Origin: an uncultured Paracoccaceae bacterium
Lineage (GTDB): Bacteria; Pseudomonadota; Alphaproteobacteria; Rhodobacterales; Rhodobacteraceae
Assembly: GCA_937883775.1 (NCBI GenBank)
Contig: CAKZXZ010000177.1
Span: 29,999 to 93,998, forward strand
Direction of reading: 5' to 3'
Length of the DNA: 64,000 nt
Shown here: positions 39,210-56,168 of the stretch, in pieces
Layout: the number at the start of each line of letters is the position of its first letter
How positions within the stretch are numbered: the stretch's first letter is position 1
Notes under the pieces: model-generated
Databases searched by the model: none
Seen by the model: the letters and a program-made list of their open reading frames with translations, nothing else
Told to the model about the DNA's origin: nothing
Position numbers and translations under genes: made by a program

Positions 39210-40607
39210 TTACGCTGGTTCGACAATCCGAAGCGGTTGCCGGACCGGCTGAACAGCTGATTTAGGCAGTCGCAGAAAAATCATCGCCGAGTTGTGAATG
39301 TCATTGTGCTTAAGCGTCGCAGCAAGTTGACCCGGCGCGCATGTCAGGATCTTCTGATTGGCACGCTGTGCGTCAGCGACGATTTCAATCTCAACCAATT
39401 TGCCAAATGCGGACCCGCGCAGTTTCTGCTCGATCATCGGCGCTGATGACACGGCCATGTAAAGCGCAACACAAGCACCCGGTTTCAATTGCGCCAGCCA
39501 ATCGGGCGCATGAGGACCGTCATCCAGATGTCCCGTGGTCAGGACCAACTGGTCGATCTCTCCCCGCTCGGTCAGCATCTGGCCCGATGCAGCCGCTGCA
39601 CCACTGGCCGCAGTCACACCCGGCACGATCTCCACCGCGATACCAGCCTCCTCAAGAGCGGCCAATTCTTCGGCGCCACGGGCGAAAATACCCGGATCAC
39701 CACATTTCAAACGCACAACGCGTTGCCCGTGCTGGGCTGCGCTCACCAGCATGTTGGTGATCTTGGATTGTGGCCATGCGTGACAGCCTGGCTTCTTGCC
39801 AACATAAACGCGCTCTGCATCCCGGCGGGCCAACTCAAGGATCTCCGGATCAACCAGGCGATCGTAAAAGATCACATCTGCTTCTTGCAGGCGCTGCACA
39901 CCCCGCAGGGTAATCAGGTCTTTCGCACCTGGCCCTGCGCCAACCAAGGCGACGCTGCCACCAGCGCTTTGTCCCACATCACCGGTCTGGATCGCGTCCT
40001 TGATAAGCCGCGCCGCCTCCCGCTCGGACCCGCGCGCGAACGCTTTGCGCGGCGCACCTTTGAAAACCCACCGCCACAGGTCGCGCCGGTCACGCGGCGC
40101 AAGACGGGCCATGGCCGCATGGCGCAACCGTCCCGCCAAAGCCGCCAATTCCCCCAAGCGCGGCTCAAGTGCTTGCTCCATCTGCGTCTTGATCTGACGG
40201 GCAAGAACGGGCGCCGTTCCTTCGGTGCCGATGGCGATAACGACCGGGTCACGATCCACAATCGAGGGTGTCAGCGCATCGCAAAGCGCCGGTTGATCGA
40301 CCACATTCACCGTGGCACCCCCCAGTTTTGCCAAGCTATGCAAAGCCATATCCGCACCAGGGCAACCAGTGGCGACAAAAGCCAGTGTGCTGCCTTCAAA
40401 GCTTTGAGGCGTTGGTGCCTGTGTGCAATGCACAATACGCCCGGCATCCGCCAAACCAGCCAACTCGTCTTCCAACTCCGGGGCCAACACCTCGATCCGG
40501 GCTTCGGTTTTCAGGATAAGCCGGGTCTTTTGCGCAGCCTGTTCGCCGCCACCCGCGATGACGACCTTGCGGTCTTTCATCTGCAAAAACATTGGGAATG
40601 TCTTCAT
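39210..40607 (-). CDS. cysG: Siroheme synthase (multifunctional CysG)
   Basis: MKTFPMFLQMKDRKVVIAGGGEQAAQKTRLIL (dehydrogenase/chelatase) plus VALVGAGPGAKDLITLRGVQRLQEADVIFYDRLV (uroporphyrinogen-III methyltransferase). Confidence 0.94.
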   Translation of the reverse strand: MKTFPMFLQMKDRKVVIAGGGEQAAQKTRLILKTEARIEVLAPELEDELAGLADAGRIVHCTQAPTPQSFEGSTLAFVATGCPGADMALHSLAKLGGATVNVVDQPALCDALTPSIVDRDPVVIAIGTEGTAPVLARQIKTQMEQALEPRLGELAALAGRLRHAAMARLAPRDRRDLWRWVFKGAPRKAFARGSEREAARLIKDAIQTGDVGQSAGGSVALVGAGPGAKDLITLRGVQRLQEADVIFYDRLVDPEILELARRDAERVYVGKKPGCHAWPQSKITNMLVSAAQHGQRVVRLKCGDPGIFARGAEELAALEEAGIAVEIVPGVTAASGAAAASGQMLTERGEIDQLVLTTGHLDDGPHAPDWLAQLKPGACVALYMAVSSAPMIEQKLRGSAFGKLVEIEIVADAQRANQKILTCAPGQLAATLKHNDIHNSAMIFLRLPKSAVQPVRQPLRIVEPA

Positions 40608-41548
40608 GCACTTTTCCTTTCAGAAGTGTGGCGCGACTGCCAAAGGCGACGCGCAAGATCGTCTGCCTTTTGGACTGTCGGAGCGGCTTTCAATGTCCAA
40701 AGCGCAAGACCTGCAGTTGCGATCACAGTCGCCTCGGCAAAGTCATCACGCAGATCACCCGCCCAAAGAGCCACCAGATCGGTTTGCTGATCGGGCTCGT
40801 GCAAACGGCGCGTTTCATCCAGCAGAGCAGGCGCAATCTCAGAAAGATGCACACCGTCCTGCAAACCAAAAACAGCGATATCCTTCGCTGGATTACGCTC
40901 AAATTCACCGCCACCGCCTTTGATAACCGTTAGGTGCTGCTGACCAAGCGCCGCTGCCGCATTGGCCTGAAGGCCGCGATAGGAAGGGTGAAACACCCCT
41001 TGCACGCTTGCCGCAGCATCGGCGGGGTTCCACATCCGCAAAACCGTATTGATGCAAGAGCGTAGCCCAAATGTCGCGCGCAAGCCCAGTAAACCTTGTG
41101 CAACCGGGCTCAACACTTCAAGCGGATAATACATCAGTCTTTCGCTCAGCAATCCTGTCGCCGCTAATGCCGCGCGTACATTGGCCACATCCTGTTGATG
41201 CGAATTCGCGCCGTGCAGCATCACGCGATAACCCGCCTGCGACACCAACTTGGCGGCCAGCAGAAAAAGCGGTGCACCCCGCGTGCGGCCCGCCGCATAG
41301 CAAGGCCAATCCAGATCGGCTTTTGGCAGGTTGGGCGCAACAGAAGCACGCAAAGCAGCCGTAAAACCGGCAATCTCGGCATCTGTTTCACCACGCAGAC
41401 GCAACACCATCAACAAGGCCCCAACGGCTTCAGGCGCTGCCACTTCGTTCAGGATAACCGTCATGGCGTCTTGTGCTTCATCCTGCGTCAAAGCGCGGGC
41501 ACGGCCCTTGCCTTGCGCAACGATGCGTATGAACGGAGCCAGCGTCAT
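40604..41548 (-). CDS. TrpD2/YbiB-like glycosyltransferase family protein (anthranilate phosphoribosyltransferase-like)
   Basis: Helical N-domain ALTQDEAQDAMTVILNEVAAPEAVGALLMVLRLRGETDAEIAGF; HGANSHQQDVANVR. Assignment by motif only. Confidence 0.72.
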   Translation of the reverse strand: MTLAPFIRIVAQGKGRARALTQDEAQDAMTVILNEVAAPEAVGALLMVLRLRGETDAEIAGFTAALRASVAPNLPKADLDWPCYAAGRTRGAPLFLLAAKLVSQAGYRVMLHGANSHQQDVANVRAALAATGLLSERLMYYPLEVLSPVAQGLLGLRATFGLRSCINTVLRMWNPADAAASVQGVFHPSYRGLQANAAAALGQQHLTVIKGGGGEFERNPAKDIAVFGLQDGVHLSEIAPALLDETRRLHEPDQQTDLVALWAGDLRDDFAEATVIATAGLALWTLKAAPTVQKADDLARRLWQSRHTSERKSA

Positions 41549-44121
41549 TCCGCTGCGATCCGCAAATCAGGAAGGTTCAGCAACCCCGCAAGCTCGGGCT
41601 TGCAGGCGCCGCAATTGGTACCGGCACAGGTTGCAGTTCCGATTGCTTCAACCGTCTGCGCGCCCCCACGGATCGCATCACGGACAGTGTTCACACCAAC
41701 GCCCATGCATGCACAGATTGTGACGCCTGGATCAGGCTGATCCGCACTCGGGCGTCCCGAAAGGGCCGTAAGAGCCGCACAAGACGTCCCCACCAACGAC
41801 GCCGCATGGCTGCGCGCCAACGCAACCGGGCGCGGGCTGGCAAAAAAGAGCGCCTGCAAAACGTCATCACGGGTAATCGCAATCCGTGTCTGCCCAGATT
41901 GCGGATCTTCAAGCACAGCAACATCACCGTCCTGATTGGTGAGATGCGCGGCAAGCATCTCAAAGTCATCGGGCTGCGACAGCCCGGCAAACTCGGCCTG
42001 CCAGCCAGTTGGAATATGTGACACCGCAGCATAGTCCGCCTCTGGCCGGATTTGCGCAGTAGAGACCGCAAAGCCATACCAGGCCGCGTCAAACCGGCGT
42101 GCCTGCGTCGTAATACGCTTCAGCGCAGGTTGCCCTGACACCGGATCCACCACTGAAGCAGCAAGGACGTTGACCCGTCCATTCGCGCTACGTTGTCCGG
42201 TCCAATGCATGGGCGCAAAAAGGGCTTTTCGCGCTGTCTGATCGGTGATCCATGCCCGCAGGATTGCATCGCCTTGCGGGTTCTGCAGCGCAACCAGATC
42301 TCCCTCGGACAGCCCAAGATCAGCGGCATCAAGGGGGTGGATTTGCACATAGGGTTCCGCCAGATGCGCACCCAAACGAGCGGCCTTTCCAGTGCGCGTC
42401 ATCGTGTGCCACTGATCGCGATTGCGCCCTGTATTCAGGGTGAAACCTGTTCTTGCCACCTGCACGGGGGCATCCACGGCGATCATCCTCGCTTTGCCAT
42501 CAGCGTGGTAGAAACCACCCTCCGCAAAGAAACGCCGCCCGTCTTGCGGCCATTGCGTTGGCAAAAGAGACGCGTAATCCGCATCGGCAAAAATGCTCAG
42601 ATCAAGGTCTTTGCCGAACGCTGCAGCGGCGCCCGACAGGCGCACATATTCAGCGAAAACCTCCGCCGGGGTCTGGTATGAAAATGCCTCAGCCCAGCCC
42701 ATGCGCGCTGCAACATCTGCAATGATTTGCCAATCGGGCCGGGCCTCGCCGGGCGATGGCAGAAAAGCGCGCTGGCGCGAGACGCGGCGCTCGGAATTTG
42801 TGACAGTGCCGTCTTTTTCGCCCCAGGCCGTCGCGGGCAACAGCACATCGGCCAGATCGCCCGTATCCGTACGGGCCATGATATCAGAGACGGCAACAAA
42901 CGGCACAGACTTGATTGCGGCAGCAACCGCATCGGCATCTGGCATCGACACCGCAGGATTGGTCGACATCACCCAAAGCGCCTTGATCGTGCCATCCGCA
43001 CAGGCCTGAAACAGATCAACAGCTTTCAGGCCCGGCCTTGCCGCAATCGTCGGGCTTTTCCAAAAGCTTTGAACGGTTTCGCGGTGGTCTGCATTCTCAA
43101 GATCAAGATGGTTGGCCAGCATGTTGGCCAAACCACCAACTTCCCGCCCGCCCATCGCGTTGGGTTGACCTGTCAGCGAAAACGGCCCGCAACCCGGTTG
43201 CCCAATGCGACCTGTCACAAGGTGACAATTCAAGATCGCGTTGACCTTGTCCGTGCCGCATTCCGACTGGTTCACACCTTGTGAGTAAAGCGTGACAACC
43301 TTCTGCGTGCCCGCCCACATCCGATAGAAGGCCGCGATCTCGTCTGTGGACAGACCGCTCTGTGCGGGGTCAGAGCTGCGCGCGGTCTCAATGGCAACCT
43401 CAGCGCCCGTCACATGCTCTGCGACATATGATGTACTAATGCTGCCGACATCTGCCAAATGGGCAAGCAATCCATTGAAAAGGGCGGTGTCTCCATCGGG
43501 TCGGATGCGCAGATGCATATCCGCCAGATCGCAGGTCGCCGTACGGCGCGGATCGACATTGACCACTTTAAGCTCAGGGCGCTTGGCTTTGGCATCCTGA
43601 ATACGCTGGTGCAGCACCGGGTGACACCATGCCAAGTTTGAGCCGACAAGCACTAAAAGATCGGCCTGTTCAAGGTCTTCATAGGTGTTCGGCACCGTAT
43701 CCGTCCCGAAAGCACGTTTATGCCCCGCAACCGAAGAGGCCATACAAAGCCTTGAATTCGTGTCGATATTTGCTGATCCGATAAAGCCTTTCATCAGCTT
43801 GTTGGCGAGGTAATAGTCCTCGGTCAGCAATTGGCCCGAGACGTAGAACGCAACGCTATCGGGCCCGTGCTGATCTATGGCCTGCGTGAACTCATCCGCC
43901 AGACGATCCAGTGCAGCATCCCAGCTGACCGTTGCACCGTTTATCTGCGGGGCCAGCAAACGGCCGTCCAGATCAATCGTTTGCCCTAAGGCCGCCCCTT
44001 TCGAACACAGCCGCCCGAAATTCGCCGGATGCTCAGGATCGCCTTTGATTGTGCCATCAGCGCCCGCCAAAACTCCGCAGCCCACGCCGCAATAGGGGCA
44101 TGTGGTGCGGGTCAGGCTCAT
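41545..44121 (-). CDS. nasA: Assimilatory nitrate reductase catalytic subunit with C-terminal BFD-like [2Fe-2S] domain
   Basis: TTCPYCGVGCGVLAG [4Fe-4S] motif; molybdopterin domains; C-terminal CACMGV...CAGTNCGACKPEL. Confidence 0.94.
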   Translation of the reverse strand: MSLTRTTCPYCGVGCGVLAGADGTIKGDPEHPANFGRLCSKGAALGQTIDLDGRLLAPQINGATVSWDAALDRLADEFTQAIDQHGPDSVAFYVSGQLLTEDYYLANKLMKGFIGSANIDTNSRLCMASSVAGHKRAFGTDTVPNTYEDLEQADLLVLVGSNLAWCHPVLHQRIQDAKAKRPELKVVNVDPRRTATCDLADMHLRIRPDGDTALFNGLLAHLADVGSISTSYVAEHVTGAEVAIETARSSDPAQSGLSTDEIAAFYRMWAGTQKVVTLYSQGVNQSECGTDKVNAILNCHLVTGRIGQPGCGPFSLTGQPNAMGGREVGGLANMLANHLDLENADHRETVQSFWKSPTIAARPGLKAVDLFQACADGTIKALWVMSTNPAVSMPDADAVAAAIKSVPFVAVSDIMARTDTGDLADVLLPATAWGEKDGTVTNSERRVSRQRAFLPSPGEARPDWQIIADVAARMGWAEAFSYQTPAEVFAEYVRLSGAAAAFGKDLDLSIFADADYASLLPTQWPQDGRRFFAEGGFYHADGKARMIAVDAPVQVARTGFTLNTGRNRDQWHTMTRTGKAARLGAHLAEPYVQIHPLDAADLGLSEGDLVALQNPQGDAILRAWITDQTARKALFAPMHWTGQRSANGRVNVLAASVVDPVSGQPALKRITTQARRFDAAWYGFAVSTAQIRPEADYAAVSHIPTGWQAEFAGLSQPDDFEMLAAHLTNQDGDVAVLEDPQSGQTRIAITRDDVLQALFFASPRPVALARSHAASLVGTSCAALTALSGRPSADQPDPGVTICACMGVGVNTVRDAIRGGAQTVEAIGTATCAGTNCGACKPELAGLLNLPDLRIAAE

Positions 44122-44453
44122 GCGACAGCTCGCGCGCGCAGGAAGGTTGCATCCAGAAGGATGCGCCCGCCGTCGACACGGGCCGGGTATGTCGAAACCT
44201 GCCCATTGTCTTCACCCTGCACCAGACCCGTTTCCAACGAGATCACCCAGTTATGCAGCGGACAGGTCACCGAAGCGCCATGCACAATGCCGTCCGCCAA
44301 GGGGCCTTGCTTATGCGGGCAAACATTGTCCAAGGCGAAGACCTCGTCCGCGGCAGTGCGAAAGATCGCAACACAGCCGTCACGGGTTTTGACCACGCGC
44401 GCGCCACGGCGGGGCACTTCATTCAGGTCAGCGATGTCGATCCAGTTGGTCAT
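44118..44453 (-). CDS. nirD: Nitrite reductase (NAD(P)H) small subunit, Rieske-type
   Basis: LDNVCPHKQGPLADGIVHGASVTCPLHNWVISLETG. Confidence 0.94.
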   Translation of the reverse strand: MTNWIDIADLNEVPRRGARVVKTRDGCVAIFRTAADEVFALDNVCPHKQGPLADGIVHGASVTCPLHNWVISLETGLVQGEDNGQVSTYPARVDGGRILLDATFLRARAVA

Positions 44454-46897
44454 TCCGCAGCCTCCAGCATCAGATTTGCGAGGGGTTGGTAGCTGTCAGC
44501 CTTCTGGGTGACATGCTCGGCCCAAGGGTCCTTGCGATAGATGGATTGCGACAGCTCAAACCGCTCGATCAAAGCCGCGCGCTCGTCCAGATCATCGACA
44601 ACGCGCTCTTTCACCCAATCAAGGCCAAACTTGGCGATGAATTTATAGGGCCGGTCGAGGTATTTGGCGTGTTCGCGATAAAGCTGAACAAAGGCAATCG
44701 TCAGATCAATCGCCTCTTGCTCTGTGGGCGCTTTTGCAAGGGCTTCGGTCTCTTTTAGATCCATCCCCGCAGCCCCGCCCACACTCACCTCATACCCACT
44801 GTCCACGCAGATCACGCCCACGTCCTTGCAAGTCGCCTCCGCACAATTGCGCGGGCAGCCAGACACGGCCAGCTTCACCTTATGAGGCGTCCATGACCCC
44901 CAAAGCGCCTTCTCCAGCTTGATCCCCAGCCCGGTGCTGTCTTGCGTCCCAAACCGGCAGTGATCGGTGCCGACACATGTTTTCACCGTGCGCAGCCCTT
45001 TAGAATAGGCATGGCCAGACACCATTCCAACAGCATTCAGATCGGCCCAGATGGCCGGCAAATCCTCGCCCTTCACACCCAGCAGGTCGATCCGCTGACC
45101 GCCCGTGACCTTCACCGTCGGCACGTTGTACTTATCCGCCGCGTCGGCAATCGCGCGCAGCTCGTTGCCGTTGGTGATCCCGCCCCACATGCGCGGCACA
45201 ACGCTGAACGTGCCGTCCTTCTGGATGTTGGCGTGCTTGCGTTCATTGATAAATCGGCTCTGCGGGTCGTCCTGATACTCCAGCGGCCAGTCCGCCAGCA
45301 GATAGAAGTTGAGCGCCGGACGGCACACATGGCACCCACAAGACGTCTTCCATCCGCATTCCTGCATCACAGCCGCCAGCGAGGTCAGCGTTTGCGACTT
45401 TATCAACCGGCGCACATCTTCATGGGTCATCTCGGTACAGCCACAAACCGACTGCGCGGCGGGCATCACAAAGTCATCGCCCAGCGTGACGGCCAAAACC
45501 TGCTCGACCAGCCCCGTGCACGTCCCACAAGAGGCCGAGGCCTTTGTTGTGGACTTGACGGCCGCCAAATCATCGGCGCCAGCCAAGATTGCATCCTCGA
45601 TCTGACCCTTGCAAATGCCGTTACAGCCACAGATTTCCGCGTCACGCGGTAAGGCTGCAACGGCTAAGAGCGGGTCCGCAGTATCGCCCCCCTGATAGGC
45701 CGGTCCAAAGATCAGGGTCTCGCGCATGTCCGCGATATCGGTCTTGTCCTTGATGAGGCTGAAGAACCAGTTGCTGTCGGCGGTATCACCATACATCACC
45801 GCACCGATCACAGCGTTATCTTCGATCACCAGACGGCGGTAGACACCGCGCGCGGGATCACGAAAAACGATGTCTTCGCGTCCGTCGCCATCGGCAAAAT
45901 CGCCTGCACTGAACAGATCGCATCCCGTGACTTTCAGCTTTGTCGAAATCTCTTTCTGAACGAATTGCGCATCTTGCGCCAAAAGTGTTTGCGCCGCGAC
46001 GACCGCCTGGTCGTATAGCGGTGCAACAAGACCGAAGAGCGCGCCATCATGCTCGACACATTCCCCGACAGCCAGCACATCCGCATCAGATGTAATCATC
46101 TGGTCATCAACATGGATGCCGCGACCGACCGCCAGGCCCGCTTCCTGCGCCAGCCCGATATTCGGGCGAATGCCCACGGCCATCACCAGCAAATCGCAGG
46201 GCAACTCGGTTCCATCATCCAGCAACAACGCGCGAACCTTGCCGTTCTCGCCAAGGATCTCCTTCGAGTTGGCCGCGCATTTTACGGTAATGCCCTTATC
46301 AATCAGCGCCTTGCGCAACAGATACCCAGCGGCCTCGTCCAGCTGCCGCTCCATCAGGTGGCCCATGATGTGCACGACCGTGACATCGACACCGCGTGCG
46401 GCCATGCCTGCCGCAGCCTCAAGGCCCAGCAAACCGCCGCCAATGACGACGACCTTATTGTCAGGCCCCATCGCCATCATACGTTCGGTGTCTTCTAGAT
46501 CACGGTAGGCAATCACACCCTCCAGATCATGACCCGGCAGAGGGATCATGAACGGGTTCGACCCCGTCCCGAAGATCAGCTTGTCATAGGGCAACACGTC
46601 GCCATTCGCTGCTGTGACGGTCTTGGCCGCGCGGTCGATCTTCGCCACGCGCTCACCAAAACGACAGGTCACACCATGCTCGGCATACCAGGCATCATCA
46701 TGGGTGATGATCTCTTCATAGGTCTTGTCCCCGGCCAGAACCGGCGAAAGCATGATCCGGTTGTAGTTCCCGCGCGGCTCTGCGTTGAAAAGCGTGATGT
46801 TGAAGGCATCGGGGGCGTTTTCGACGAGGTGTTCGATTGCGCGCCCCGTCGCCATACCAGCCCCAATGATGATAAGGTTCTGCGTCATGGCTTTCAC
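44450..46897 (-). CDS. nirB: Nitrite reductase (NAD(P)H) large subunit
   Basis: 815 aa; FAD/NAD domain, BFD Cys motif, siroheme/FeS ligands CVGTDHCRFGTQDS and SGCPRNCAEATCKDVG. Confidence 0.95.
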   Translation of the reverse strand: MKAMTQNLIIIGAGMATGRAIEHLVENAPDAFNITLFNAEPRGNYNRIMLSPVLAGDKTYEEIITHDDAWYAEHGVTCRFGERVAKIDRAAKTVTAANGDVLPYDKLIFGTGSNPFMIPLPGHDLEGVIAYRDLEDTERMMAMGPDNKVVVIGGGLLGLEAAAGMAARGVDVTVVHIMGHLMERQLDEAAGYLLRKALIDKGITVKCAANSKEILGENGKVRALLLDDGTELPCDLLVMAVGIRPNIGLAQEAGLAVGRGIHVDDQMITSDADVLAVGECVEHDGALFGLVAPLYDQAVVAAQTLLAQDAQFVQKEISTKLKVTGCDLFSAGDFADGDGREDIVFRDPARGVYRRLVIEDNAVIGAVMYGDTADSNWFFSLIKDKTDIADMRETLIFGPAYQGGDTADPLLAVAALPRDAEICGCNGICKGQIEDAILAGADDLAAVKSTTKASASCGTCTGLVEQVLAVTLGDDFVMPAAQSVCGCTEMTHEDVRRLIKSQTLTSLAAVMQECGWKTSCGCHVCRPALNFYLLADWPLEYQDDPQSRFINERKHANIQKDGTFSVVPRMWGGITNGNELRAIADAADKYNVPTVKVTGGQRIDLLGVKGEDLPAIWADLNAVGMVSGHAYSKGLRTVKTCVGTDHCRFGTQDSTGLGIKLEKALWGSWTPHKVKLAVSGCPRNCAEATCKDVGVICVDSGYEVSVGGAAGMDLKETEALAKAPTEQEAIDLTIAFVQLYREHAKYLDRPYKFIAKFGLDWVKERVVDDLDERAALIERFELSQSIYRKDPWAEHVTQKADSYQPLANLMLEAAE

Positions 46898-48591
46898 TCC
46901 GCTGCGACCGCCTCAGGGGCGGGCGTTGGCTTGGATCTGGGCTTGGCGCCGTGCTCGTATTCCTCAAGAAAATCAAGCACGTCCTGACGGTAGGAGTAGT
47001 AGTCGGGATGCTCTAAAAGCGCTTTGCGCGTGCGTGGACGCGGCAAGTCGACATCAACGATCTTGCCAATGGTTGCCTGCGGACCATTGGTCATCATCAC
47101 GACACGGTCGGCCAGAAGAATGGCTTCATCCACGTCATGGGTCACACAAATCGCAGTCACTTTGGTGCGCGACCAGACCTCCATCAGAACTTCCTGAAGC
47201 TCCCAGCGCGTCAGGCTGTCAAGCATCCCGAACGGCTCATCCAACAGCAGCAGTTTGGGCGAAAGCGCAAAGGCCCGGGCGATGCCCACGCGCTGCTTCA
47301 TGCCGTTCGACAAAGATGCCGCTTGCTTGTCCATGCTGTCGGCCAGACCGACACGTTCCAGATAGTATTCCACCACGTCCTGACGCTCGGCCATGCTCGC
47401 CGTGGGATAGACCCGGTCCACCCCAATCGAGACATTCTCTTTCGCCGTCAGCCACGGAAAGAGGTTGGGCGACTGAAACACAACCGCGCGTTCGGGATCT
47501 GCCCCCTGAACGTGACGGCCATCCAATTTGATCGCCCCTTTCGAGATATCATTCAAACCCGCCGCCATTGTCAAAACCGTGGACTTACCGCAGCCCGAGT
47601 GACCAATCAGGCTGATAAACTCACCTTTGTTGATCTTCAGATCAAAGTCCTCGACGACCGTCAGAGGCCCCTTGGGCGTCGGATACACCTTGTGAAGCTG
47701 CGAAAAGTCGAGGAACCGCTCCTCGATCATCCCTTCCTGCGCTTTGGCAACCGCCGCAGGCACCCCATGGATAGGCGTCACATTCGGCAACAGGCGCGAG
47801 CCTTCGACCTTCGCCGCCACGCCGACATCCATCAGATACTTCGTCACCTGCGCGCGCAGGGCTTTGAACGTCTCGTCGTGGTTCATCGCGCCGCGATCAC
47901 GAGGGCGTGGGATAGTGACGGCGACCGGGTCGGCCAGCGTGCCATCCGGGTTCAGCGGGATAATGCGGTCTGCCAGCAAAGTCGCCTCATCCACGTCATT
48001 GGTAATCAGGATGCAGGTCTTCTTGTCCTGCTCCCAAATCTCCAAAATCTCATCGGCCAGATTGGCCCGCGTCAGCGCATCCAGCGCGGACAAAGGTTCG
48101 TCCAGCAACAGCACCTCAGGGTTCATCGCCAAGGCGCGTGCCACGGCAACCCGCTGACGCATCCCGCCCGACAATTCCGCCGGACGGCGCGAAACCGCGT
48201 GGCTCAGCCCAACCATCCCGACATAATGGTCGATCTTGGCCTGACGTTCCGCCTTAGACAGTTTCGGGAACACCGCATCGACTGCCAGCCCGACATTGCC
48301 ACCCACCGTCAGCCACGGCATCAGCGAGTAGCTTTGAAACACCAGCCCGCGCTCGGGCCCCGGTCCAGCGATGGGCGCGCCTTTGAAAGCGACCTCACCA
48401 CTATCAGGCATCTCAAGCCCGGCGATCAGGTTCATCAGCGTGGATTTCCCGGTGCCGGAAAATCCGAGGATGGCAACAAACTCGCCCTCTTCAATCTCAA
48501 GGTTGATCCCCTTGAGCACTTCGGCGCGGTGCGTCCCTTCGCCAAAGCCTTTGGATACGTCGGAAAAGCTTAGAATGCTCATATCGCTCAC
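46894..48591 (-). CDS. Nitrate ABC transporter ATP-binding protein, tandem fused NrtD/NrtC-type ABC domains
   Basis: 565 aa with two complete ABC domains: Walker A GFSGTGKST and GHSGCGKST, LSGGMRQRV and LSNGMKQRV, LLLDEPLSALD and LLLDEPFGMLD. Confidence 0.92.
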   Translation of the reverse strand: MSDMSILSFSDVSKGFGEGTHRAEVLKGINLEIEEGEFVAILGFSGTGKSTLMNLIAGLEMPDSGEVAFKGAPIAGPGPERGLVFQSYSLMPWLTVGGNVGLAVDAVFPKLSKAERQAKIDHYVGMVGLSHAVSRRPAELSGGMRQRVAVARALAMNPEVLLLDEPLSALDALTRANLADEILEIWEQDKKTCILITNDVDEATLLADRIIPLNPDGTLADPVAVTIPRPRDRGAMNHDETFKALRAQVTKYLMDVGVAAKVEGSRLLPNVTPIHGVPAAVAKAQEGMIEERFLDFSQLHKVYPTPKGPLTVVEDFDLKINKGEFISLIGHSGCGKSTVLTMAAGLNDISKGAIKLDGRHVQGADPERAVVFQSPNLFPWLTAKENVSIGVDRVYPTASMAERQDVVEYYLERVGLADSMDKQAASLSNGMKQRVGIARAFALSPKLLLLDEPFGMLDSLTRWELQEVLMEVWSRTKVTAICVTHDVDEAILLADRVVMMTNGPQATIGKIVDVDLPRPRTRKALLEHPDYYSYRQDVLDFLEEYEHGAKPRSKPTPAPEAVAAE

Positions 48592-49661
48592 CGGTTCGCC
48601 GAAAAGGTGAACATCGACTGCAGCGCATACATCACCCGGTCCAGCATGAAGCCGATGATGCCGATGGTGAACACAGCAACCATGATCCGCGCCAGCGATT
48701 GGCTTGACCCGTTCTGGAATTCGTCCCAGACGAATTTGCCCAATCCGGGGTTCTGCGCAAGCATCTCAGCCGCGATCAGCACCATCCATCCAACGCCCAG
48801 CGACAGACGCAAACCGGTAAAGATCAGCGGCAGTGCAGACGGCAAGACCAGCTTGGTGATCTTGGAATAGGTACTCATTTTCAAGACTTTGGAAACGCTT
48901 ACCAAATCCTTGTCGATGGACGATACGCCCAGCGCGGTATTAATCAGCGTTGGCCAAAGTGAGCACAGCGTCACCGTAATCGCCGAGATCAAAAACGATT
49001 TCGAGAACCAGCCGTCATTGGTCACATAAAGCGCCGACACAACCATTGTGACAATCGGCAACCACGCCAGAGGACTGACCGGTTTGAAGATTTGAATAAG
49101 CGGGTTGATTGCAGCATTTGCTGTTGCTGACAAACCCGCCATGATCCCCAACGGGATCGCAACGACCGAAGCGATCAGGAAGCCGAAGAACACTGTTTTG
49201 ATCGACGTCCAGATCTGATCGTAATAGGTGGGCTTGCCGGTATAAACACGCTCTTTGACGCGATCGGCCTGACCATCTGCGACCAGCTTTGCGTTGCGCT
49301 CATCCTGGCGGACATAGAACGCAGCTTCCTTGTCTTTCTCGCGCAAGGCGTCGGCGTGCAGGTTTCCGACTTGCTCCCACACCTGCACGGGGCCGGGCAC
49401 CGCGCCAAGCGATGTTTGCACGCGCGGTGCAAGCGAAGCCCATGCCATCAGGAAGATCAGAATTGCCAGGACAGGCACCCCAAGGAGGCGCCAGATTTCG
49501 CCAATCTGTGCGCGCGGATTATCTCCGGCGGCGGCCTTCAGGACAGGGGTCATCCACGAAAGGCCAAGGACCTGAAACCAGCCATCCGCCTTGTTGATGA
49601 GGGTAAATCTGCGGGCTTTGCGCGCCTCTTGAGCGAGGGTATCGGGATCAATGGCAGTCAT
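48588..49661 (-). CDS. nrtB: Nitrate ABC transporter permease
   Basis: BPD_transp_1-type permease, position in cluster, 4-nt overlap with the ATPase. Confidence 0.92.
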   Translation of the reverse strand: MTAIDPDTLAQEARKARRFTLINKADGWFQVLGLSWMTPVLKAAAGDNPRAQIGEIWRLLGVPVLAILIFLMAWASLAPRVQTSLGAVPGPVQVWEQVGNLHADALREKDKEAAFYVRQDERNAKLVADGQADRVKERVYTGKPTYYDQIWTSIKTVFFGFLIASVVAIPLGIMAGLSATANAAINPLIQIFKPVSPLAWLPIVTMVVSALYVTNDGWFSKSFLISAITVTLCSLWPTLINTALGVSSIDKDLVSVSKVLKMSTYSKITKLVLPSALPLIFTGLRLSLGVGWMVLIAAEMLAQNPGLGKFVWDEFQNGSSQSLARIMVAVFTIGIIGFMLDRVMYALQSMFTFSANR

Positions 49662-49739: not shown

Positions 49740-51107
49740 TTAACCCTGGATTTCGCTTCCAACGATGATCTGGTCGCCTTTCAGGCCAATCGGCAAGCTA
49801 TCCAGATATGCGTTGGGCGCCCGGCCGTCATAGGCGATGCCATCAATGATATCTTCAGCGGGGGTCGGGACCTTAAAGCCATCGCTGTCCCACGGGAAGT
49901 CGACCTCATTGGCCATGCCCTCATCAACCAGCATGCGTGCGGCTTCCAGATAGATATCGGGGCGATAAACGCTCTTGGCGGTTTCAAAGTACCAGTCATC
50001 GGACTTCGGCTCGGCGATCTGACCCCAACGGCGCATCTGTGTCAGATACCAGATCGCGTCTGAGTAAAACGGATAGGTCGCATTATAGCGGAAGAAGACG
50101 TTGAAATCGGGAATGTCGCGGACATCGCCTTTTTCAAATTCGAACGTGCCTGTCATCGAGTTCGCGATAACCTCGGCATCCGCGCCGACATATTCAGACC
50201 GTGCAAGGATCTCGACCGCTTCTTGGCGGTTCGCGTTTTCATTCTCATCCAACCAGATCGCCGCGCGGATCAGCGCCTTGGTCAATGCGATGGTCGTGTT
50301 GGGGTTTTCTTCGGCGAACTCTTTGGTGATGCCAAAGACCTTTTCGGGGTTGTTCTTCCAAAGTTGGTAGTCCGTGATAACCGGCACACCAATGCCCTTG
50401 AACACAGCCTGCTGGTTCCAGGGTTCACCCACGCAGTACCCAAAAATCGTGCCTGCTTCCATCGTGGCGGGCATTTGCGGCGGCGGTGTGACAGACAATA
50501 GCACGTCAGCACCAATCTGCCCCGAGATGTCTTCAGGCGAATAATACCCCGGCTCAAGACCACCTGCAGCCAGCCAATAGCGCAGCTCGTAATTGTGGGT
50601 CGACACCGGGAACACCATGCCCATGTTGAACGGGATACCCTGATCCTGATAGCTTTCCACAACCGGCTTCATCGCGCTTGCGCTGATCGGATGCTGGGGG
50701 CGGCCGTCGTCCATCAAAGGCACGTTCGGCTTCATCTGCTCCCAGATCTCGTTCGACACCGTGATACCGTTGCCGTTCAAGTCCATCGAAAAAGGCGTGA
50801 TGATATCGGCTTGCGTGCCATATCCGATCGTCGCCGCCAAAGGCTGACCGGCCAGCATATGCGCACCGTCCAACTGTCCGCCAATCACGCCGTCCAAAAG
50901 CACCTTCCAGTTCGCCTGCGCCTCAAGCGTGACAAACAGCCCTTCGTCTTCGAAATAGCCATTCTCATAAGCGACAGCCAACGGCGCCATGTCCGTCAAC
51001 TTGATGAAACCAAAGGTCAGTTCGTCTTTCTCAAGATCCAACATCTCGGCCATGGCAGAGGTCGCCATCAAGCCAGCTGTAATCGTGCATGTGAGCAGAG
51101 TTCTCAT
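49740..51107 (-). CDS. nrtA: Nitrate ABC transporter substrate-binding protein (CmpA/NrtA family)
   Basis: Signal [51 protein letters not shown]. Confidence 0.94.
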
Positions 51108-51151
51108 TCAAGATATCCTTTCTAAGGTCTTCCAGAGCTGATCCGGAAACG

Positions 51152-51210
51152 AAAAAAGCCGCATGTAAACAGCGCGAAGAACACTCTTCGTGCGTCGTAC
51201 AAGCGGCTTT
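51152..51210 (-). terminator. Leader terminator upstream of nrtA
   Basis: Minus strand: AAAGCCGC-T-TGTA...CGAAGA-gtgt-TCTTCG...TACA-T-GCGGCTTT-TTT; long stem ending in a T run. Confidence 0.8.
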
Positions 51211-51224
51211 GCTTTGAATGTGGT

Positions 51225-51269
51225 GGACGCCGTCATTGGCATCCGAAATCCTGTAGGGCGGCTGTGCCC
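51225..51269 (-). promoter_or_regulatory. ANTAR-type two-hexaloop RNA motif (probable NasT target) in the nrtA leader
   Basis: Minus strand P1: GGGC-ACAGCC-GCCC (51269-51256). P2: GGATGCC-AATGAC-GGCGTCC (51244-51225). 11-nt linker. Both hexaloops carry A1 and G4. Confidence 0.82.
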
Positions 51270-51366
51270 ATGCTTATTTTTGCGACAGACGGGACGCGTC
51301 AGACAATGTTTTTATGCGCTGAACAGGATCTTTGATGCTGCGGCGCAGAAAGTGATTAAATTTTCA

Positions 51367-52530
51367 TCACTTGCCTGCGTCAAAATCAAACAACTTGCCG
51401 TCAAAAAAGGCATCTGGACCAAGAATCATGTGCCCGCGCGACGAAGCGACCGCCGTCGCGTGGCGCATGGATCCTTCGACCTTCTCTGACGCGCCAGGCA
51501 GATCAACCCCGGTTGGACCAAGCGCGTCACGGTACATGTCTGACCGGAAGCAGCGCTTGGCAGCTGCGATTCCCTTGGCGGGTGCGCCCAAACGTGTTGC
51601 AATCCACGCGGCCTGGCTGCGCCAGGGAAAATGCGCCGCATGCTGATGAAACAGTAAAAACCGTTCAACCGGCACAGGGGGTGCCCCCAAAGCAGGCGTC
51701 AACATTCCCGAAATCGCAGGATCAATCAGTTCCGGCGCGATGTTCAGATGTTCACTGCGCGCCAAAATCTCGACCGCGAGTGGCTTGTTTCCCGGTGTAT
51801 CAAGCCAGCGCATCGCAGGTTCCAGCGCACGCAACAGCCGGCGCACCTCGTCTTTATGGCTCTCGACCCACTCATGCCGCGCTGCCAAGACTTTTTCGGG
51901 TGCGAACGCCCAAACGGCATTGCCCGGCAAGACAAGTTCGGCAGCACCACGCGCAACCGCGGCACTGCCCCAAGGCTCTCCGACCCAAAATGCATCGATA
52001 TCGCCGTCCTCGACAGCGTCCGCCATCCGTGGCGGCGGAATTGTGACGATCTCGATCTTGAGGCCCGAGAGATCGCCCTGCCCTTGCAGCCAGTATTCAA
52101 GAAGCAACCTGTGCATTGAATAGTGAAACGGAATGCCGATCCGCAAATGTGCAATGCCCAGCGCACCAAGCGCAGGCAGAATGTGATCGGCCTGCCCAAA
52201 GCGCAGCGCCACATCTGCGGCGCGCAACGTGTCGGCCAATTTTGAGGAAATGCCAAAGACCGTGCCATTGACCGACAACACCATCAGCGCATCAATCTCA
52301 CCCGCAAGGCCGCCATACCCCAGCGACATCGCAACAGGCATTGGAGAGAGCATATGCGCAAAGTCCAGATGGCCCAACGCAAGCATATCGCGCGTCGCCG
52401 ACCATGAAGGCTGTGCCACAAGGTTCAGCTCAAGACCTTCCTCGGCGGCGAAGCCAAGCTCTTTTGCGACGATCAACGGGGCACTGTCCACCAAGGGGAC
52501 ATAGCCACAATTCAAAATCGTCCGGGTCAT
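51367..52530 (-). CDS. nasS: NasS-like cytoplasmic nitrate sensor (CmpA/NrtA fold, no signal peptide)
   Basis: MTRTILNCGYVPLVDSAPLIVAKELGFAAEEGLELNLVAQPSWSATRDML; no signal peptide; overlaps nasT by 4 nt. Confidence 0.88.
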   Translation of the reverse strand: MTRTILNCGYVPLVDSAPLIVAKELGFAAEEGLELNLVAQPSWSATRDMLALGHLDFAHMLSPMPVAMSLGYGGLAGEIDALMVLSVNGTVFGISSKLADTLRAADVALRFGQADHILPALGALGIAHLRIGIPFHYSMHRLLLEYWLQGQGDLSGLKIEIVTIPPPRMADAVEDGDIDAFWVGEPWGSAAVARGAAELVLPGNAVWAFAPEKVLAARHEWVESHKDEVRRLLRALEPAMRWLDTPGNKPLAVEILARSEHLNIAPELIDPAISGMLTPALGAPPVPVERFLLFHQHAAHFPWRSQAAWIATRLGAPAKGIAAAKRCFRSDMYRDALGPTGVDLPGASEKVEGSMRHATAVASSRGHMILGPDAFFDGKLFDFDAGK

Positions 52531-53111
52531 GACAAAAGGTCCGACGCCGTCACAAGCGCTTGCGCCACATCAATCACCTTGCGCCCCTGATCCATCGCGG
52601 TTTTGCGCAAAAGCTGATAGGCCTCATCTTCCGAGACACCTCGCTGGCGCATCAAAATACCTTTGGCACGGTCCAGCATTTTACGATCCTCCAATGCGCG
52701 TTTGGCGGCATCAAGCTCGGACTGCAGCTGGCGCAGGATCTGAAACCGGGCAATAGCAGTTTCCAGAACCGATTTGATCCGGTTCATCTGCAACCCGTCG
52801 ACAACATACGCGCTGACCCCGGCCGCCAACGCGGCCTGGGTGAGGTCTTCATCCGATCTATCGACGAACATCGCCACTGCGCGTGACTTGCTGTCGCTCG
52901 CAAGGCTGAGATGTTCCAGCATGTCACGATCCGGATTTGCGACGTCAATCAGAACGATATCCGGCTGGCGCGTCTTGATTTCCCGTTCAAGACCAGCGGT
53001 CTGCGCCAAGGCATGGACATCAGACCATCCCGCCTCGACCAAAGCATCAATGATGTCGCGCGCCTTTTGCGGATCTGCTTCGACAACAAGAATAGAGAGG
53101 TCGCGGTTCAT
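52527..53111 (-). CDS. nasT: NasT-like ANTAR-domain response regulator/antiterminator
   Basis: LDRAKGILMRQRGVSEDEAYQLLRKTAMDQGRKVIDVAQALV is an ANTAR domain; N-terminal receiver-like domain. Confidence 0.92.
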   Translation of the reverse strand: MNRDLSILVVEADPQKARDIIDALVEAGWSDVHALAQTAGLEREIKTRQPDIVLIDVANPDRDMLEHLSLASDSKSRAVAMFVDRSDEDLTQAALAAGVSAYVVDGLQMNRIKSVLETAIARFQILRQLQSELDAAKRALEDRKMLDRAKGILMRQRGVSEDEAYQLLRKTAMDQGRKVIDVAQALVTASDLLS

Positions 53112-53308: not shown

Positions 53309-54976
53309 ATGGGCACACCGATGCAGAATGCAGACGTAATCATTGTAGGCGCGGGCCTTGCTGGCCTTGTGGCGGCGGCAGAGCTGGCAGATCGCGGCAA
53401 GTCGGTCACCCTGGTGGATCAGGAGCCTGAGCATTCTCTTGGCGGACAGGCGTTCTGGTCGCTGGGCGGTCTGATGATGATCGACACGCCAGAACAACGC
53501 CGTATGGGCATTCGCGATAGCCACGCGCTGGCCTTGTCCGATTGGATGGGCACCGCGCGGTTTGATCGGGTCGAAGATCACTGGCCGCGCAAATGGGCCG
53601 AAGCCTATATCGACTTTGCCAGTGGTGAGATGCGGCCATGGCTGCACGCGCAGGGCATGCGGTGGTTTCCGGTCGTCGGTTGGGCCGAGCGTGGAGGCTC
53701 TTTTGCCGACGGCCATGGCAATTCCGTGCCCCGCTTTCACCTGACATGGGGCGTCGGCCCCGGCACAATCGAGCCCTTCATCAGCCGCGTGCGCGCGCAT
53801 CACGAGACAGGCCGTATCGCTTTGAAGTTTCGCCATAAATGCGATCACATTCTACTCGAGGCAGGCCGCGTACAGGGCATCGCCGGGCAAATTCTTGCAC
53901 CTGACACCAGCACTCATGGCGCGTCTACCAATCGTGATGCCGTGGATGATTTTGAACTGCGCGCGCCCAGCGTGATTGTAGCCTCTGGCGGGATCGGAGG
54001 CAATTTCGATCTGGTGCGCAAGGCATGGCCGCAAGACCGGCTGGGCAAACCACCAAAACGCATGATTTCGGGCGTGCCGGCGCATGTCGATGGCCGGATG
54101 CTTGCGATCACAGAGCAGGCGGGCGGCACGGTTATCAATGGCGACCGGATGTGGCACTATACCGAAGGCGTGCAAAACTGGGATCCGATCTGGCCCGCGC
54201 ATGGTATTCGCATCTTGCCCGGCCCATCCTCCATGTGGTTTGACGCCACCGGCACACGGCTGCAACCACCCGCATTGCCAGGGTTTGACACGCTCGGCAC
54301 GCTCAAAGCCATCCTGGAAACGGGGTATGACTATTCGTGGTTCATCACGACGCAGAAAATCCTCAAGAAGGAATTCGCGCTCTCCGGTTCGGAACAAAAC
54401 CCTGATTTTGCTGATAAAGATTGGAAAGCTGTTCTCAAGCAACGCATCCTGAACAAGGCCGCAACCCCGCCGGTAGAGGCTTTCAAAGAGCACGGCGCCG
54501 ATTTCGTTATTGCCAAGACGCTGCCTGATCTGATCGACGGTATGAACGCGCTTGAAGGCAATACCCTACTGCAACACGACAAGATCCGAGCGCAGATCGA
54601 AGCGCGCGATCTGCAGATCAACAACCCTTTCTCGAAAGATGCGCAGGTGATGGCGATCCATGCCGCCCGGCATCATCGCGGTGACCGTATCCTGCGGACG
54701 GCCAAGCCGCACAAGATCCTTGATCCTGACAATGGTCCGCTGATTGGCGTGCGCTTGAATATCCTGACGCGCAAAAGCCTTGGCGGGCTACAAACTGACC
54801 TGAACGGTCAACTGATCGACGCGAATGGCGACCGTATCCCGGGCCTTTTTGCAGCGGGTGAAGTCGCTGGCTTTGGCGGCGGTGGCTATCACGGATACAG
54901 CGCGCTGGAAGGCACGTTTCTGGGCGGTTGCATCTTTTCTGGCCGAAATGTTGGGCGCGCCGACACAATTGCCTAA
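53309..54976 (+). CDS. FAD-binding dehydrogenase (KsdD/fumarate-reductase-like flavoprotein)
   Basis: ADVIIVGAGLAGLVAAAELADRGKSVTLVDQEPEHSLGGQAFWSLGGL; C-terminal GLFAAGEVAGFGGGGYHGYSALEGTFLGGCIFSGR. Confidence 0.9.
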   Translation: MGTPMQNADVIIVGAGLAGLVAAAELADRGKSVTLVDQEPEHSLGGQAFWSLGGLMMIDTPEQRRMGIRDSHALALSDWMGTARFDRVEDHWPRKWAEAYIDFASGEMRPWLHAQGMRWFPVVGWAERGGSFADGHGNSVPRFHLTWGVGPGTIEPFISRVRAHHETGRIALKFRHKCDHILLEAGRVQGIAGQILAPDTSTHGASTNRDAVDDFELRAPSVIVASGGIGGNFDLVRKAWPQDRLGKPPKRMISGVPAHVDGRMLAITEQAGGTVINGDRMWHYTEGVQNWDPIWPAHGIRILPGPSSMWFDATGTRLQPPALPGFDTLGTLKAILETGYDYSWFITTQKILKKEFALSGSEQNPDFADKDWKAVLKQRILNKAATPPVEAFKEHGADFVIAKTLPDLIDGMNALEGNTLLQHDKIRAQIEARDLQINNPFSKDAQVMAIHAARHHRGDRILRTAKPHKILDPDNGPLIGVRLNILTRKSLGGLQTDLNGQLIDANGDRIPGLFAAGEVAGFGGGGYHGYSALEGTFLGGCIFSGRNVGRADTIA

Positions 54977-55160
54977 GAAATACCGCCCAAGCAGAGTCGA
55001 CATCCGCTTAGTCTTTAGGCAACCATAGCCTATCTGCTTAATCAGGTGGCAGAACGCTTAATCCAAAAGAACAAGAGCGCGCCGCCTGTGCCCGGCTCTC
55101 CCCTTTCCGAAGGCGACGAGTCAGGTTGCGTTTGATTTGTCTGCAAGGGAGCGACTTTTG

Positions 55161-56168
55161 ATGACACTACACAAATCCATTCTGGCAGTCGCCGCGACGC
55201 TGATCGCTGCGCCAGCCATCGCCGAAACTGAAATGCCCTTCGCGCTTGATTGGAAATTTGAAGGCCCCTCAGCGCCTTATTTTCATGCGCTAGACGCGGG
55301 TTACTTCACCGAAGAAGGCCTGACCGTGACTATCGCCGAGGGCGCAGGCTCGCTTGATGCGATCCCAAAGGTTGCCACCGGCGCATTTCCCGTCGGATTT
55401 GCCGATATCAATTCGCTGATGCGCTTTCTCGATCAGAACCCGGGCGCACCCGTCACGGCGGTTATGATGGTCTATGATAAACCGCCTTTCGCTGTGGTGG
55501 GCCGTAAATCGCTGGGCGTTGAAACACCCGCTGATCTGCAAGGTAAGGTGCTGGGTGCGCCGCCCCCCGATGGCGCTTGGGCGCAATTTCCAATCTTTGC
55601 GGCAGAAACAGGCATCAACTCGGATGAGATTACGGTCGAACCCGTGGGGTTCCCAACCCGCGAACCGATGCTTGCGGAAGGCAATGTCGCCGCGATCACA
55701 GGCTTTTCGTTCTCGTCTACATTGAACCTCAAACGTCTGGGCGTTCCGGCCGAGGACATCTCTGTGTTGCTGATGGCCGATCACGGCGTTGATCTGTACG
55801 GCAACGCGATCATCGTGAACACGGACTTTGCTGCCGAGAATGGCGAAGCGGTCACGGGATTCCTGCGCGCCGTCGCCAAGGGCTGGAAAGATGCGATCGG
55901 CGCCCCTGAAACCGCCATCGCAGCCCTGATAGAGCGCAACCCCGCCGCAGATGCAGCGCTTGAGACAGAGCGTCTTGGCATGGCGATCGAGGCCAATGTG
56001 CTCACGGATTATGTGAAGGAAAACGGCATGGGCGGCATTGACGAGGCGCGCTTTGCCAATGCTTTGGAACAAACCAAATCGGTCTATGAATTCCAAACCG
56101 CCCCTGACGCCGCACTCTTTTTCGACGGTCGGTACTTGCCCGATGACGGCAGCTTGATGTTGCAATAA
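55161..56168 (+). CDS. ABC transporter substrate-binding protein (NMT1/THI5-like)
   Basis: Signal MTLHKSILAVAATLIAAPAIAE; ALDWKFEGPSAPYFHALDAGYFTEEGLTVTI. Start at 55161 preferred. Confidence 0.88.
   Translation: MTLHKSILAVAATLIAAPAIAETEMPFALDWKFEGPSAPYFHALDAGYFTEEGLTVTIAEGAGSLDAIPKVATGAFPVGFADINSLMRFLDQNPGAPVTAVMMVYDKPPFAVVGRKSLGVETPADLQGKVLGAPPPDGAWAQFPIFAAETGINSDEITVEPVGFPTREPMLAEGNVAAITGFSFSSTLNLKRLGVPAEDISVLLMADHGVDLYGNAIIVNTDFAAENGEAVTGFLRAVAKGWKDAIGAPETAIAALIERNPAADAALETERLGMAIEANVLTDYVKENGMGGIDEARFANALEQTKSVYEFQTAPDAALFFDGRYLPDDGSLMLQ

Follow-up and report, generated by a model that had tools for sequence, protein, structure and literature searches.

A three-hexaloop leader, very probably a NasT-dependent antitermination switch, upstream of the nitrate assimilation operon of an uncultured Rhodobacteraceae bacterium

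The window, i.e. the whole 64,000-nucleotide stretch of DNA that was analysed, carries on its minus strand a regulatory gene pair followed by the genes of nitrate and nitrite assimilation:

52527 to 53111, minus strand: nasT, receiver and ANTAR domains (Pfam ANTAR 1.4e-21, Response_reg 3.1e-7)
51367 to 52530, minus strand: nasS, NMT1-like nitrate sensor (Pfam NMT1_2 3.2e-60)
49740 to 51107, minus strand: nrtA, nitrate-binding protein, first controlled gene (Pfam NMT1_2 8.8e-96)
41545 to 49661, minus strand: nrtB, fused nrtCD ATPase, nirB, nirD and nasA-type nitrate reductase (Pfam)
39210 to 41548, minus strand: operon tail, a 314-amino-acid gene and the siroheme synthase gene cysG

The nasS and nasT genes overlap by 4 bases, and their order and position are those of nasTS in Paracoccus. 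The initial annotation had placed this pair just upstream of the leader, in agreement with the Pfam matches. A single ANTAR match was found in the genome (G000), which makes nasT its sole ANTAR gene. The genes from nrtB to the nitrate reductase overlap or are tightly packed, and the genes of the operon tail have 4-base overlaps with the preceding genes; cysG was identified by NCBIfam PRK10637 (484 bits, over the cut-off). As in a NasS-NasT regulon, a receiver-ANTAR nasT gene adjoins a nasS gene for an NMT1-like sensor, and the leader precedes nitrate/nitrite assimilation genes (nrtA to nasA, and cysG). Divergent from nasT, at 53309-54976 on the plus strand, is a flavoprotein dehydrogenase-like gene; after it, at 55137-56168, comes a gene for an ABC-type binding protein.

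NasT aligns to EutV (6wsh) with an E-value of 8.8e-22. The RNA-contact residues of EutV, among them Tyr164, which stacks on G4, were taken from PMC8934654 and are numbered as in that paper (chain position minus 2). Arg142, Lys143, Lys149, Glu160, Tyr164 and Arg168 are identical in NasT, Lys147 and Arg177 are conservatively changed to Arg and Lys, respectively, and Asn173 and Arg175 differ. In its receiver domain, NasT has an Asp (VVDG) in place of the usual Lys of EutV (LVKP). As this conserved lysine is missing, the domain is probably a pseudo-receiver, and its sequence would fit control through NasS and not by phosphorylation.

The gap between nasS and nrtA contains the following elements:

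51108 to 51366: nasS-nrtA gap, 259 nt
51256 to 51269, minus strand: H1, hexaloop hairpin GGGC-ACAGCC-GCCC read in the sequence, loop with A1 and G4
51225 to 51244, minus strand: H2, hexaloop hairpin GGATGCC-AATGAC-GGCGTCC, loop with A1 and G4, middle of three
51201 to 51214, minus strand: H3, hexaloop hairpin AAGC-AAAGCC-GCTT, loop with A1 and G4, antiterminator
51152 to 51210, minus strand: intrinsic terminator AAAGCCGC...GCGGCTTTTTT, -28.5 kcal/mol
51210 to 51198, minus strand: 5' arm of the terminator, AAAGCCGCTTGTA
51167 to 51155, minus strand: 3' arm of the terminator, TACATGCGGCTTT, with the U-tract reaching 51152

The size of this gap and a series of hairpin P1 (H1), an 11-nt linker, hairpin P2 (H2), about 14 nt and a long terminator had been described in the initial annotation, as had A1 and G4 in the hexaloops ACAGCC and AATGAC, and each element was found in its place, correct to the base. 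The H2 stem has 7 base pairs including one G-U, H2 and the terminator are 14 nt apart, and the start of nrtA lies 44 nt past the terminator U-tract. Both hairpins are thus real, but the two-hairpin anatomy had missed the antiterminator H3, and the former "P2" is the middle of three hairpins. The linkers between H1 and H2 (11 nt) and between H2 and H3 (10 nt) are both within the ANTAR range of about 5-12 nt; if H2 is discounted, the H1-H3 linker is 41 nt. H3 sits on the 5' arm of the terminator, with which it shares 10 bases, and the two structures are therefore mutually exclusive.

ANTAR switches depend on their second hexaloop (P2), which occupies sequence of the terminator 5' arm, so that only one of the two structures can form (Ramesh 2012, PMC3369931; Stewart 2012, PMC3369936). 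The hairpins found here have A1/G4 hexaloops (ACAGCC in H1, AATGAC in H2 and AAAGCC in H3). H3, the last of them, is the canonical ANTAR "P2" antiterminator: it lies over the 5' arm of the intrinsic terminator, and the terminator cannot form together with it. The dual motif of Ramesh 2012 has at most two hexaloops, whereas three are present in the window and in many relatives; as the two-hairpin core H2-H3 is complete, the leader was filed as a variant of this motif. When the gap was shuffled 20,000 times with dinucleotides preserved, suitably spaced pairs of A1/G4 hexaloops occurred in 0.4% of the shuffles and triples in none, and the only such triples on either strand of the 64-kb window are those of this leader. 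A fourth A1/G4 hexaloop at the tip of the terminator (CGAAG-AGTGTT-CTTCG, ~51190-51175) showed no conservation in the alignment and was dismissed as chance.

Orthologous leaders were collected by taking the sequence 3' of nasS at 80 loci from a NasT search of GTDB genomes and at 30 more from a family sample. Leaders without RAGC-ANNGYC-GYTY, mostly Paracoccus nasA leaders, were excluded, and 85 distinct leaders were retained, window included. H3 is the best-conserved element, with RAGC-ANNGYC-GYTY at the base of the terminator in 85 of 85 leaders, partly by selection because leaders lacking it had been excluded. It agrees with the published eut consensus AGCAANGRRGCUY (PMC3369931) in 11 of its 13 positions, with CC in place of RR. 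For the H1 and H2 loops, the best hexaloop hairpin of each upstream stretch was chosen blind to the loop letters in order to avoid circular counting; with this choice, A1 and G4 are each found in the H1 loop of 76 of 83 relatives. Outside the family, the same hairpin triple was found in L164 and the usual two hairpins in L168, L180 and L181.

A folding energy of -53.2 kcal/mol was computed for the 151-nt region (z -3.2 compared to dinucleotide shuffles; 1 of 200), and the minimum-energy fold contains H1, H2 and the terminator together. In the folding of growing transcripts, H1 (about 0.98) and H2 (1.00) were formed at all lengths and H3 at 0.14-0.78 before the 3' arm of the terminator emerges; once this arm was present, the terminator reached 0.93-1.00 and H3 was near zero. 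H3 by itself is worth about -2 to -3 kcal/mol compared to -28.5 kcal/mol for the terminator. Being far weaker, H3 must be held by something for read-through to take place, which is the role expected of NasT.

The initial annotation had taken P1 and P2 as the pair that relieves the terminator. This assignment did not hold, since both lie upstream of the terminator, share no sequence with it and are compatible with its fold. NasT bound to H1 and H2 could act on a separate, non-overlapping terminator in another way, e.g. by contacting the polymerase, and the two hairpins are real, both carry A1 and G4, and their spacing of 11 nt is one accepted by EutV. We nevertheless consider such a pair very unlikely, as the minimum-energy fold accommodates the pair and the terminator side by side, whereas the structure that does compete with the terminator is H3, the most conserved element in the 85 leaders.

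Both alternative folds are supported by covariation. The score of H1-H2-H3 was 0.323 compared to 0.144 in shuffles, with 8 pairs changed on both sides, and that of H1 with the terminator was 0.230 compared to 0.092, the terminator covarying across 13 pairs; 0 of 500 shuffles, which are blind to relatedness, scored as high in either case, and slid versions had 27-53% of cells paired compared to 93%, for both counts. The H1 stem covaries with 96% of cells paired, and in H2 5 of 6 pairs are changed on both sides. In H3, 100% of cells are paired and 3 sequences have a G-C/A-U swap; where the basal pair of H3 is swapped between A-U and G-C, the 3' arm of the terminator changes as well. This arm is often changed too where position 3 of the H3 loop is not A (C-G in 6 of 10 and G-C in 2 of 2 for loop position and opposite 3'-arm base, compared to A-T in 62 of 69). 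H3 and the terminator thus covary over the same alignment columns, as a switch predicts.

A covariance model of 39 leaders, the window among them (R1), scored the window at 64.9 bits. Everything else in the 3.66-Mb genome stayed at or below 18 bits, none of it convincing, and the genome search for further motif copies that the initial annotation had proposed thus yielded one real element. Because the window is part of R1, a second model (R2) was built with the window and its three closest relatives left out; R2 scored the window at 52.9 bits (E 7e-15), the next match in the window being at 13.2 bits. R1 recovered 43 of 49 loci outside its training set at E <0.1. Among 199 family genomes, 29 have R1 matches and 82 have NasT (E <1e-20), and NasT is present in all 29 motif-bearing genomes (hypergeometric p 2e-13, uncorrected for relatedness). 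The covariance model separates NasT targets from noise. With a leader that is conserved and covarying in 85 relatives and a motif confined to NasT-bearing genomes, the identity proposed at the outset, a NasT/ANTAR leader of the nitrate operon, is well supported. A cmscan of 50000-52500 against Rfam, run up to E 10, returned three matches below threshold, all of them away from the leader, and no matching family.

One complete NasT-type switch, with hairpins, terminator and U-tract, was found at 2020-2150 of L150 (genome G072), directly before the start codon of a stand-alone cysG gene that is apart from the nas operon and nasTS. Siroheme is the cofactor of NirB, and cysG is therefore a sensible target of the switch. 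A weaker copy of the motif (29.9 bits; L149, genome G161, 4043-4118) lies before a NirB-like flavoprotein gene, the product of which has a membrane part, and then a multihaem cytochrome gene; it is possibly a NasT target outside assimilation. A further model match off the operon, in L152 (24.9 bits), falls within a catalase-like reading frame and was discarded.

From its position between nasS and nrtA, the terminator would also end the nasTS transcript, and it might be constitutive or part of that transcript, with hairpins that do not regulate. This is extremely unlikely in view of the conservation of all three parts, of the covariation seen for the alternative fold, in which the terminator is undone, and of the L150 copy of the element, which stands before cysG and not next to nasTS. 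The hairpin mutants of Paracoccus denitrificans argue against it as well, as mutation of hairpin HI severely lowered expression and an HII mutant was two-fold up in ammonium (PMC5424462). The leader is very probably a NasT-dependent transcription-antitermination leader.

The role of H2 is less clear-cut. Its loop is less constrained than those of H1 and H3: position 1 is often G, many relatives have no hexaloop at this position and several have other loop sizes. NasT might therefore bind H1 and H3 only, H2 being a structured spacer that sets the working distance, in line with a rather constant distance between the H1 and H3 loops (49-50 nt in 39 of 76) and with spacers that fold better than their own shuffles (-9.3 compared to -6.2 kcal/mol). 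Against this, a hexaloop with a purine at position 1 and G4 (at least 4 bp) is found in 37 of the 76 spacers compared to 2.9 expected from shuffles; among the hexaloop hairpins chosen blind to their letters, 49 of 53 have a purine at position 1 and 44 of 53 have G4, which does not vary among the 39 nearest leaders, and a hairpin serving as a spacer only would not depend on its loop letters. The spacer reading is thus possible but rather doubtful, and, because the loop letters are kept, we lean towards H2 as a third NasT site. That the extra upstream hexaloop is a further landing site for NasT is what we think, but it is the least certain part of the model. It is conceivable, though we would not expect it, that all three hexaloops work, each with one NasT dimer, and that a NasT oligomer throws the switch more cooperatively than in two-hairpin ANTAR switches. 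No description of an evenly spaced three-hexaloop array was found in the literature searched, most subscription journals being outside its reach.

By analogy to the homologues in Paracoccus and Bradyrhizobium, from which NasT binding, the response to nitrate and termination in vivo are taken over, the switch would operate as follows. RNA polymerase would start upstream of H1, and H1 and H2 would fold at once. When nitrate is absent, NasS would hold NasT, and the emerging 3' arm would form the terminator and capture the H3 sequence, so that transcription stops before nrtA. When nitrate is present, NasS would free NasT, whose ANTAR domains would bind the A1/G4 hexaloops. NasT would be recruited via H1 and/or H2 and then clamp H3, which would withhold the 5' arm of the terminator and allow read-through into nrtABCD-nirBD-nasA-cysG. 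This mechanism is the ordinary, already known one of NasT/NasS antitermination leaders, and an element of this kind was to be expected.

A scan of the leader region for sigma-70 promoters gave no sigma-70-like match. The published NtrC-site pattern, with one mismatch allowed, was not enriched over chance in the window (13 matches compared to 10.2 expected), and no match was found just upstream of nasT. A palindrome CTGC-N3-GCAG (often TGCTGCATTGCAGCA) lies at 51338-51348 on the minus strand, shortly past the nasS stop and ~70 nt upstream of H1, and is found in the same place in most relatives. It looks like a putative activator site for the leader promoter; by eye, it departs both from the published pattern of NtrC sites and from sigma-54 spacing.

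For the nitrate switch of marine Rhodobacteraceae, where no Rfam family was found, the analysis provides a base-resolved, covariation-backed model. With the antiterminator reassigned to H3, mutants can be aimed at the right bases, and the conserved third hexaloop makes the stoichiometry testable, i.e. whether a NasT oligomer needs three loops.

Compared to known systems, the leader resembles that of eutP in Enterococcus faecalis, with A1/G4 hexaloops recognized by EutV, P2 on the 5' arm of the terminator (PMC3369931, PMC8934654) and linkers of 5-12 nt in the eut leaders (PMC3369931). P2 of eutP and H3 are near-identical (AGCAANG..GCUY), but eutP has two hexaloops and the present leader three, and EutV is phosphorylated by EutW, whereas NasT has a binding-protein partner and a receiver without the usual lysine. 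The nasF leader of Klebsiella oxytoca likewise belongs to a nitrate assimilation operon that is induced by nitrate through ANTAR antitermination, and it has P1 and a terminator-overlapping P2 (PMC3369936); in contrast, NasR senses nitrate itself via its NIT domain, and nasF has two hexaloops.

In Paracoccus denitrificans, the nasTS-leader-nas order, the receiver-ANTAR NasT, the NasS sensor and hexaloop hairpins upstream of a terminator-like structure are alike (PMC3795266, PMC5424462). NasT binds the nasA leader RNA there, nitrate splits NasS-NasT, and about six monomers were reported for free NasT (PMC3795266). Hairpin HI, 137 bp upstream of nasA (PMC5424462), is most likely the TCGC-AATGAT-GCGG hexaloop, identified here by distance, which starts 134 bp upstream in L063. 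The Paracoccus leader differs in driving an MFS nasA and not nrtA, in its three hexaloops (AACGGC, AATGAT and GACGAT in L063) and in the different terminator that follows them, whose 5' arm lacks the RAGC-ANNGCC-GCTY hairpin. The Paracoccus nasA leaders L063-L080 have three hexaloops, GGCGC-AAYGRC-GYGCC, TCGC-AAYGAT-GCGG and CCGC-RANGNN-GCGG, followed by a GAAAGCGC...GCGCTTTCC structure that has hardly any U-tract, and termination may work differently in them. In Bradyrhizobium diazoefficiens, NasT binds the nosR leader and blocks its terminator (PMC6759348); the likeness lies in this interaction of NasT with leader RNA and the interference with a terminator, and the genes controlled through nosR are those of denitrification.
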